Shown here: piece by piece, positions 44,301 through 51,862 of the stretch
How the letters are laid out: every line of letters begins with the position of its first letter
How positions within the stretch are numbered: position 1 is the first letter of the stretch
Assembly: GCA_964035545.1 (NCBI GenBank)
Contig: OZ037770.1
Location: 4,445,662-4,509,661, forward strand
From: Bugula neritina
Lineage: Eukaryota > Bryozoa > Gymnolaemata > Cheilostomatida > Bugulidae
Direction of reading: 5' to 3'
DNA: 64,000 nt
The notes under the pieces: model-generated
The model's input: only the letters and a program-made list of their open reading frames with translations
What the model was told of the DNA's origin: nothing
Database searches by the model: none
Position numbers and translations under genes: made by a program

Positions 44301-47300
44301 ATGTTTCCTGAATTTATTGAGAAACTTCATAACAGTGCCCGTGATTAGCCATGAAATTTCCCAAAGTATGGCACACCCATCCATGAAGAACGCCTCTGCT
44401 CAAACAACTCTGTCAGACACTTCTACTTTTATAGCATTTTTGAGATTTGACTTGGTTGTAACATCTCTCATTTCCCCTCTATCCTTGAATGCAAAAGGTG
44501 TCAATGCTGCAAGTATATGAGCCATATAAGAGTCTGTGTCAAAACTCTTGGTCTGCTTGAACGCAATGGCTCGGATATACATGACTTCAGTATCATACAG
44601 TGTGACAGTCAGCATCTCATCAAGCTTCTCTACACTAATGATTGCACTTTCATCAAAAACTGGCTTAAACAGCTCTTCTACCAATATTTTCAGAGCAAGT
44701 ACATCATAGTAAAACTTTTTTATTTAGCATTTAGGGGACACCACCAAAAATCAAATTAAATACTTCTACCCAAACTGGTTTAGCCATTAGTGTTCCAATG
44801 CACCTAACATAGCTCATTAAAGGAGTAGAAATTAAGAGTAAACATTTATGGAAGGGGTATGGTATGAAAATGGTTGGGAGCGGCACTGTTCTAATACATG
44901 TATGTATTACTTCTTTTAGCATAAGATAAGCTCTCATAAAAAACTGCTCACAAATACTATGTTAAGAAGCGATGGCATTGCGCTTTTAATATTTTTGAAC
45001 CCCTTTCTAACTAATTATAAGACATGGCTAAAGTTTTAAAACTGAAAATGACTGTTAAGTTGGCAGCTCAAGAAAACACTTAGATAAGCATGATGATTGG
45101 AAATAATTGCTATTTAGCTCACATGACAATGGCATTGCATTTTAATATTGCAAAACTAACCCCAGTCTTTTATGGTAAAAATATTTGTATTCAACACATA
45201 AATTAATCCTATAAAATATAATTTCATGAATTTAAAACAAACTGATGCAGAAATGCAAAAACATTATAAACACGGCAAGGCTAGGTTAAACTTGAAAAAA
45301 CTAAATGATTAAGGCTCAGCTTAGTTGTTCTTGAGTATTATTTACCTATGACTCAACAATACGCATTATGACGGCAGATGCATCTTTATTACATTAATTT
45401 CTAAAGATTTCAAAGCATTGGAACCTTGAATTTAGCCCTAGTGGATAGGTATATTTGAATCATGAATATTCGTCCGACACCCGGTGGCCATCTTGAATTT
45501 CTCGAGATGCTCAAGAGTAAGAGGTCTACACTGTAGTATAATGTTGTTTACAATTGCTGAGTTGTTTATGTACCTAACAGTAATATGCTAATAATACATA
45601 TTATGCCGTATATTTGTGATTCATTCCTATGTTATATTATAAATATACCTTACACTTATGATCAAGAGAACATCTTTCTATGCTGTCAAGCTGTACACTA
45701 ATTTATACCTTACAATAAAAAGCGTCACGCTACATTATTCCAATGGTCTCATATCAATTATTACCCACGCAAACGTACAACAAACAAGAAACATTACACA
45801 CACCCACCTGGAAAAATTTACCTATAGACCCCATCATTTGAATAATCAGAAGAGAAAAAACTTTTGTCCGGGGTTGCGAACCCGAGTCAAAAGTTCGCAT
45901 TGTTCTGCCTTACTCTATACATATGATTATTACAGTGTATGTCAGCTGACTCAGTTAGAGAAACTATACATACCATTGAATCCTCTCAACACAGTACCAG
46001 AGGTTGTTTCATCACTCATATCACTTAAAGAGTTGGATATGGAGGGCTGTTTATTATCTAATCTTCCTGAAAGGTTTGTAGAGCAGAGTCTTTCTTGTTT
46101 CAAATATTCAATAATTCACATGTTGATATAATGCTTACCAAGTATTGCTAATCAGTATGCCATTCTTTATTGTTGAAAAGCCTAAAGCTATAAATTGGAA
46201 TTTTTTTGATGCTATATGATATTAGAGTTTTTCAAAACTTGAAAAGAATCATGTTTCAATCATCTGGCATAACATTTCCTATTGCTATAAAACCTTCGTC
46301 AACAAATAATATAGCACCCACTTGTAGTTTACTAGTATCTATTTCCCATTAAATGCGAATTAGTCTTCTGTATTTTACTTTGAATATGCCTTGTCGTAAC
46401 AAATTTGTTTGTTGGATATTTTACTTGATTGAATACACAAGTAGTAGATACAGAGTACATACTATTAGCCTGATACAGTGGATTACATGTATTATACACT
46501 TTATATTACGGTCTATGTCAGCTGACTCAGTTAGAGAAACTGCTGTATAGAACAATATTTCTGTATGAAAGTATTACGTGTAGGTTGTGTTTTTATGACA
46601 CTAATTAGCACTTTTCCTACCAAATACACTTATAGTTGTATTGTTGTACTTTTTATAAAAATGAATAAAATCTTATGCATAGTATGCAATATGATACATA
46701 ATTGTAACATAGACTTGTTTTCTGTACAATAAAGATGATCCCTAGGATAAAAGTTATTTACTGTACTATTTCAAGGGATTGCATGGAGATAAACTTGTTT
46801 TAGTCACTGCCACTTAGTATACTACATTATGTGTAATTATTGTTATACTAATATTCGATATATTTATGACAACTAGTAGATCAATTACCTTTAGTTAGTT
46901 CTAATAATATATATATTATATATTATTAGAATACAGAGACTACAGAAGTTACGGGATCTTAACATTTCAGAAAATAGCTTCACCAGTCTACCATCTTCAT
47001 TGTGCGCATTGAGTAATCTGCACACACTAAATATATCCTACAACTGGTCCATGACATCCTTGAACCCTAAGATACTACAGCTAACACATCTTAGTCTCCT
47101 TATAACACAAGATTGCAATGCCTTAACATCTCCTCCACAAGAAGTCTGCGAAAGAGGACTGGATGCTGTGCGACAATACTACACAGACTTGGCTAAAGGT
47201 ACAGGTAGAAATCTTCCATTTGCTACAATAGTCATGCTGGGGAACACAATGGCAGGAAAAAGCAGTCTAATCAGAACATTACAGAGCACTGACAAGAAGA

Positions 47301-51862: not shown

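Follow-up and report, generated by a model that had tools for sequence, protein, structure and literature searches.

A bryozoan gene family with leucine-rich repeats, ROC-COR and a caspase domain in a single predicted chain

The window, by which we mean the whole 64,000-nucleotide stretch of Bugula neritina DNA that was analysed (positions 4,445,662-4,509,661 of contig C6), contains a gene in which a ROCO GTPase is joined to a complete caspase, and a search of the 216 Mb, 295-contig genome indicates that it belongs to a family that appears, from the matches found, to be clustered and expanded to dozens of genes. The first-pass annotation of this DNA had placed the ROCO GTPase and the caspase in one chain, and at the level of sequence the fusion is confirmed as real by the gene itself, by the fold predicted for the ROC-COR part, by 20 fetched paralogous loci and by gene models from Watersipora. 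The single gene that it described is thus real, but the annotation did not see that dozens of such copies exist, nor the conflicting histories of the modules, the hypervariable LRR face and the copies that lack the catalytic Cys or His.

By most of the features tested the protein belongs with both the ROCO proteins and the caspases, and judged by sequence its domain architecture is new and is shared by a large family that is diversifying. We think it probable that the gene encodes a sensor, a switch and an effector in a single chain (N-cap, variable LRRs, ROC-COR and caspase) and that it works in the way proposed in the last section.

Gene model and domain assignments

The gene model runs from 38356 to 51862 on the forward strand and has 16 exons separated by 15 GT-AG introns, all of which keep the reading frame, giving 1431 codons with no internal stop (Table 1). 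An N-cap exon is followed by seven exchangeable LRR exons, each of 138 nt with phase-2 introns on both sides and all lying within 39411-46073, then by the exon for the last LRRs and ROC-COR, which we call the main exon, and then by a complete caspase; the seven exons after the main exon join in frame and end with the TAA at 51862. The gene had earlier been given as 46930..51862, which covers the main and caspase exons, but the model begins about 8.6 kb further upstream. The earlier numbering of the caspase as residues 1147-1434 fits the extended model of 1431 amino acids.

Table 1. Exons of the ROCO-caspase gene, with positions in the window
Feature	Position	Strand	Remarks
N-cap exon	38356..38582	+	conserved Met start; donor AA|GTGAGT
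LRR exon 1	39411..39548	+	138 nt, phase 2-2, two LRRs
LRR exon 2	39986..40123	+	
LRR exon 3	40565..40702	+	
LRR exon 4	41143..41280	+	
LRR exon 5	41468..41605	+	
LRR exon 6	41892..42029	+	
LRR exon 7	45936..46073	+	preceded by 3.9 kb intron
Main exon	46939..48932	+	last LRRs, ROC GTPase ([19 protein letters not shown]), COR, Cys/His segment (CAHC...C)
Linker exon 1	49256..49348	+	weakly conserved
Linker exon 2	49532..49680	+	DLSD motif at model residue 1098, candidate self-cleavage site
Caspase p20, first half	49936..50106	+	S1 Arg in LCREGSD; Pfam C14
Caspase p20, second half	50355..50568	+	catalytic His (MTHG) and Cys (EACSG)
p20-p10 linker and p10 start	50724..50951	+	acidic inter-subunit linker
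Caspase p10	51164..51267	+	S1 Arg in SKRHPEYGS; C14 0.038 alone, inside joined match
Last exon	51713..51862	+	end LYLFPGF..., stop codon

The N-cap exon has 59 matches in its own genome including itself, and the 2.5-6.3 Mb region of C6 accounts for 32 of these. Three of the fetched relatives (L047-L049) have it in conserved form, it aligns to the N-terminal parts of the Watersipora proteins P0040 and P0041, and it has no match in Pfam. Both Watersipora proteins have additional N-terminal residues starting with MG, and on their account a coding exon starting with MG was sought upstream of 38356 and nothing convincing was found; an additional coding exon upstream of the N-cap is possible. The N-termini themselves, MGAKSSK in P0040 and MGCSLSRR in P0041, presumably resemble myristoylation signals, and these receptors may be membrane-anchored.

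Several other features of the window were seen around the gene. Two ORFs lie on the minus strand at 43877-44723, inside the long intron before LRR exon 7, and two more lie downstream of the gene, none of the four having a Pfam match. A short copy of the start of an LRR exon just before the main exon (46483-46542) is apparently a broken eighth LRR exon. There is a fragment of a second ROCO main exon at 26817-26987, with 58% identity to the first 57 residues, which breaks off in stops and is either a pseudogene remnant or an isolated exon, and a retrotransposon reverse transcriptase ORF at 29839-30840, upstream of the gene (RVT_1 3.8e-37).

Assignment of the main exon to the ROCO proteins is based on profile, alignment and predicted fold. 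Searched against Pfam, the whole model matches LRR families and Roc (6.7e-7, 30.0 bits, cut-off 27), with COR-A at 0.0036 being under its cut-off, and the main exon by itself gives Roc at 2.4e-7, above the cut-off, and COR-A at 7e-4, below it. The ROC GTPase segment in the joined model is [19 protein letters not shown]. Residues G107, K108, D156, G158, T225 and D228 are invariant in 34 aligned ROC-COR proteins, including that of the window, and together with the Roc match this bears out the earlier claim that the GTPase motifs are in place; on these two lines a Roc GTPase domain with its G motifs is assigned. An AlphaFold2 model of the main exon, made with 33 relatives, has a pLDDT of 86 and a pTM of 0.83, and its top fold matches in the PDB are LRRK1, the LRR-Roc-COR protein of Chlorobium tepidum (CtRoco) and LRRK2, the Roc-COR structures matched being 8e05, 6hlu, 3dpu and 4wnr. 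The COR domain directly after Roc is thus recognised by predicted fold and not by Pfam.

In the same alignment of 34 proteins there is a further set of invariant residues, C611, H613, C614, C653 and C666 (residues 611-666 of P0001, in the main exon). Lying between COR and the caspase linker, they may form a metal site.

For the caspase, the earlier annotation would have failed had the C-terminal part not matched the Peptidase_C14 profile, and the match is a strong one, 3.3e-28 (99.4 bits) on the whole model and 1.4e-29 (103.9 bits) on the joined caspase part, where it covers positions 1-213 of the 233 in the profile and thus both p20 and p10. Among solved chains, its sequence comes closest to an ancestral caspase-3/6/7 and to caspase-3. 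From the p20/p10 region and the catalytic His and Cys, the protein of the window is classed as a caspase of peptidase family C14A.

Neither NACHT nor CARD nor DED is among the 15 Pfam families listed for the whole model with E values up to 0.1, and the N-cap or the linker may still hold a death fold of divergent sequence. Three known classes were considered for the protein and rejected: it is not an initiator caspase with a CARD or DED prodomain, neither being in that listing, nor an NLR, as the listing has Roc rather than NACHT, nor an orthologue of MFHAS1, which is LRR-ROC-COR with no further domain, as here a caspase domain comes after.

One observation that could divide the gene is an in-frame stop in the window, TAA 48944-48946, whose first base comes 12 bases after the final complete codon of the main exon. 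A ROCO gene stopping after 48932, with a separate caspase gene as its neighbour and the two always duplicated together, would use this stop, and the conflict between the module histories described below would also suit such a pair. However the T|GT donor at the end of the main exon is conserved in 21 of 21 loci (the 20 fetched and the window), while the distance from the final complete codon to the in-frame stop beyond the donor varies between loci from 9 to 135 bases, so that the constraint is on the donor and not on the stop. Moreover every intron preserves the frame, a linker motif lies between the two modules in both species, and the NCBI models for Watersipora unite LRR, Roc/COR and C14 in single proteins. 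An end at TAA 48944 is rejected on the conserved donor, the wandering stop and the Watersipora models, and we regard two separate genes as very improbable.

Family size, relatives and module histories

The Roc profile gave 338 candidates in the genome, and as only the best 150 were scored the family counts that follow are lower bounds. From these 150 matches we hand-picked 39 Roc exons that resemble that of the window, and 36 of them have a caspase exon on the same strand within 8 kb downstream, where a rough estimate of chance expectation is about 0.2% per exon. Among the remaining three, L012 has caspase exons in its fetched DNA, L014 has them weakly, and the third has a caspase 8.5 kb off. 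Exon order is identical in all 20 fetched loci for the exons that were found, several exons being undetected in some loci, and L014 and L025 having two found each. The first p20 exon has at least 92 matches in its own genome including itself, mainly on C6 and C1. Contig C1 also carries a Hox-like homeodomain cluster (C1:22636455-22695504), with best identities to Antennapedia of 92% and 86%, and on this evidence a sponge origin of the DNA is rejected, as sponges are not known to have Hox genes.

Protein searches gave 33 proteins with the ROC-COR part, including one from Watersipora, and a single protein, also from Watersipora, with the caspase part; a search with a Watersipora protein then gave 19, of which 15 are from Watersipora with the query included. 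Among the matches labelled with an organism, relatives with the full architecture come from Watersipora subatra alone (Bryozoa, Cheilostomatida), and NCBI names several of these relatives "MFHAS1 homolog". The NCBI model P0033 (934 aa) has Roc at 27.3 bits, against the cut-off of 27, together with C14. Six others, P0036, P0038, P0040, P0041, P0042 and P0048, are of 1105-1413 aa and have LRRs, then a match to Roc, GTPase or COR, and then C14, with C14 far above its cut-off and Roc and COR below theirs; three of the six pass the cut-off for the general GTPase family MMR_HSR1.

Two of the other four, a caspase protein from a gadid and one from a coral, were considered as ROCO fusions and rejected on their listed Pfam domains, the coral protein after being scanned again. 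Another protein, P0053, has a caspase domain and WD40-type repeats together, again by its listed Pfam domains.

The tree of the ROC-COR part conflicts with that of the caspase part (25 rows, leaving out L014 and L025, for which the full caspase was not found, and P0033 and P0035). With the 19 rows from this genome and model LG+G4, the ROC-COR data reject a clade of the HACSG-type caspases (AU p = 0.00035), just as the ROC-COR grouping is rejected by the caspase data (p ~1e-30), for groups picked after the trees and motifs had been viewed. The caspase of the window gene groups with that of L028 but its ROC-COR does not (p = 0.0004 for ROC-COR and 0.011 for the caspase).

Pairs of loci give the same picture, L015 and L012 sharing 88% of ROC-COR and 40% of p20, and L012 and L017 sharing 69% and 91%. 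At the settings used, which required DNA matches of at least 60 bases with an offset below 2.5 kb, the similarity of L015 and L012 in DNA is confined to the main exon and some ten bases past its end. Between these two loci dS reaches saturation in the caspase, against 0.25 in the main exon. The conflicting modules of this pair would be explained if the ROC-COR exon had undergone conversion between loci with different caspase classes, and exon replacement would be an alternative.

Active site, linkers and the LRR face

The S1 pocket of caspases is described as formed by Arg179, Gln283 and Arg341 (PMC11121540). The first-pass annotation had the catalytic His and Cys and both S1 arginines in place in the window copy, and this stands, but it missed that the third S1 residue, the Q of QACxG (Gln283 in caspase-1 numbering), is Glu, the motif being EACSG. 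Glu in place of Gln may weaken the preference for Asp and with it the idea of self-cleavage.

We examined 39 loci for the active site and obtained the exon with the dyad from 35. His and Cys are both kept in 27, the eight with losses comprising six with Cys to Ser, one with Cys to Tyr and one with His to Leu. The S1 Gln position has Glu in 28, His in five and Gln in two, L036 and L039 being natural QACSG copies. Among loci that yielded the relevant exon, 34 of 35 have the first S1 Arg and 27 of 30 the second, and in L011 the p10 exon contains a stop codon. Pairwise dN/dS is 0.08-0.48 over the main and caspase exons for pairs with usable dS, and for five of the six Cys-to-Ser copies it is 0.08-0.38, so that these are not simply decaying.

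It could be argued from the Glu that prevails at the S1 position, from the loss of Cys in seven and of His in one of the 35 loci, and from the low dN/dS of most Cys-to-Ser copies, that the window copy is itself a pseudo-caspase, or a protease with a changed P1 preference, the domain acting chiefly in dimerisation or binding and so in the regulation of other copies. In the window copy the His, the Cys and both S1 arginines are nevertheless intact, the acidic linkers have been retained, and in Watersipora QACxG is present in 11 of the 11 proteins that reach the motif, among 16 scanned. We consider such a role for the window copy unlikely, if worth some weight.

Between the main exon and the caspase there is a D/E-x-S-D motif, which we take to resemble a caspase cleavage site. 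The pattern was defined after the sequences had been seen, and it is present in 19 of 21 loci, the two in which it was not found being L026 and L028, and on the reverse strand in none of the 21. All 16 of the Watersipora proteins scanned have it, and chance copies occur in LRRs too, as in P0038. It could alternatively be an acidic motif for phosphorylation or binding.

The LRR exons vary most on the concave face, where the proposed ligand would bind. In 15 LRR exons from the group of the window, pN/pS is 1.80 at the exposed positions of the concave strand (bootstrap 1.34-3.58) and 0.50 elsewhere (0.34-0.79). In a second set of 15 from other loci it is 0.95 (0.60-1.69) at the concave positions and 0.32 (0.24-0.43) elsewhere, and when eight positions were drawn at random 500 times the concave pN was never reached. 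The concave positions were set from the LxxLxLxxN pattern after the sequences had been seen, and exons with gaps, stops or partial matches were excluded from both sets. By these ratios the concave face is hypervariable in both sets, with a ratio above 1 in one set only.

Proposed mechanism and relation to known systems

In the mechanism that we think probable, the LRR face would bind a microbial, damage or non-self ligand, and this would alter the nucleotide state of ROC-COR and the arrangement of the dimer, so that caspase domains are brought together. The caspases would then cut the acidic linkers, at the D/E-x-S-D site before p20 and between p20 and p10, and the released active protease would start cell death or an inflammatory output. 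Where the catalytic Cys or His is lost and purifying selection persists, the copy would instead be a decoy or a regulator. Ligand sensing, activation coupled to GTP, self-cleavage and an immune role are all steps that we infer.

The first-pass annotation had proposed that GTP-dependent dimerisation of ROC-COR could unite the caspases, and this is plausible. CtRoco is described as dimerising through COR, and ROCO proteins are viewed as GTPases activated by nucleotide-dependent dimerisation (PMC4104024). The same source describes a human ROC construct that turned monomeric upon nucleotide binding (PMC4104024), so the effect of GTP could run in either direction.

An immune role can be questioned on general grounds. 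Caspases function in development as well as in immunity, and zooids are resorbed in colonial bryozoans, as in polypide regression, so the family might have a developmental or routine role in cell removal in a colonial animal and not one in recognition of microbes or non-self. However dozens of clustered copies, a hypervariable LRR face and reassorted modules are better fitted by recognition families, such features being more typical of them than of core developmental machinery, and we hold a role in cell removal to be distinctly unlikely. The expansion, the variable LRR face and the reassortment of modules make the family a candidate recognition system.

With regard to known proteins, MFHAS1, LRRK1, LRRK2 and other ROCO proteins have the same order of LRR, ROC and COR and the same Roc motifs, and LRRK1, LRRK2 and CtRoco are also the fold matches. 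The difference is in the C-terminal output, which is a caspase here, a kinase in the LRRK proteins and, in the account given by PMC4104024, absent from MFHAS1, and in that MFHAS1 and LRRK are compared here with a large clustered family with exchangeable LRR exons.

The initiator and inflammatory caspases (C14A) share with the family p20 and p10, the His and Cys, the two S1 arginines and the acidic linkers, and the YLFPG-type C-terminus presumably resembles that of caspase-1. In place of their CARD or DED prodomain there is a whole LRR-ROC-COR receptor, and, unlike in them, most loci of this genome have Glu at the S1 Gln position and some copies are without the catalytic Cys. NLR inflammasomes and the chains from NLR through CARD to caspase likewise have an LRR sensor, a nucleotide switch and a caspase output, and so work in a like manner, but there the switch is NACHT and here it is ROC-COR, with sensor and protease sharing one chain. 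To our knowledge, in known animal systems the sensor and the caspase meet through an adaptor or through death-fold oligomers.

The coupling of ROCO proteins to death or immune domains is a known theme, as indicated by reports of ROCO-TIR proteins in Aplysia (PMC9334734), of LRR-Roc-COR-TIR and kinase-death-TIR-Roc-COR genes in sea anemones (NG1 and NG3; PMC5094078) and of ROCO proteins with CARD and death domains in Trichoplax (PMC4104024). As these reports describe them, the proteins of Aplysia, sea anemones and Trichoplax carry TIR or adaptor domains, whereas here it is the caspase itself that is joined.

That a ROCO-caspase is unfamiliar in animals, as stated in the first-pass annotation, agrees with our searches of the literature, which yielded no description of one. 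Searches of open-licence literature for ROCO or Roc-COR with caspase and for bryozoan caspases gave none by title or start of abstract among the matches listed, and three articles that survey inflammasomes, the evolution of caspases or the caspases of bivalves have no word starting with "roco".

More tentatively, and with slightly less than even confidence, we suggest that the family is a system of combinatorial recognition in bryozoans, with dozens of clustered single-chain receptors that combine a hypervariable LRR array and a ROC-COR switch exon with a caspase of one of at least two classes, the modules being reassorted between loci, and in which recognition would free a protease without adaptors. 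Such a receptor would be a one-protein inflammasome, possibly for allorecognition or for control of symbionts.

A family with LRR, ROC-COR and caspase in one protein would give a minimal and testable case of nucleotide-gated activation of a protease. Proteolysis would be a direct readout of conformational change in ROC-COR, which is an open question for LRRK2. For the bryozoans, a phylum in which immunity is little studied, it would provide a candidate recognition system.
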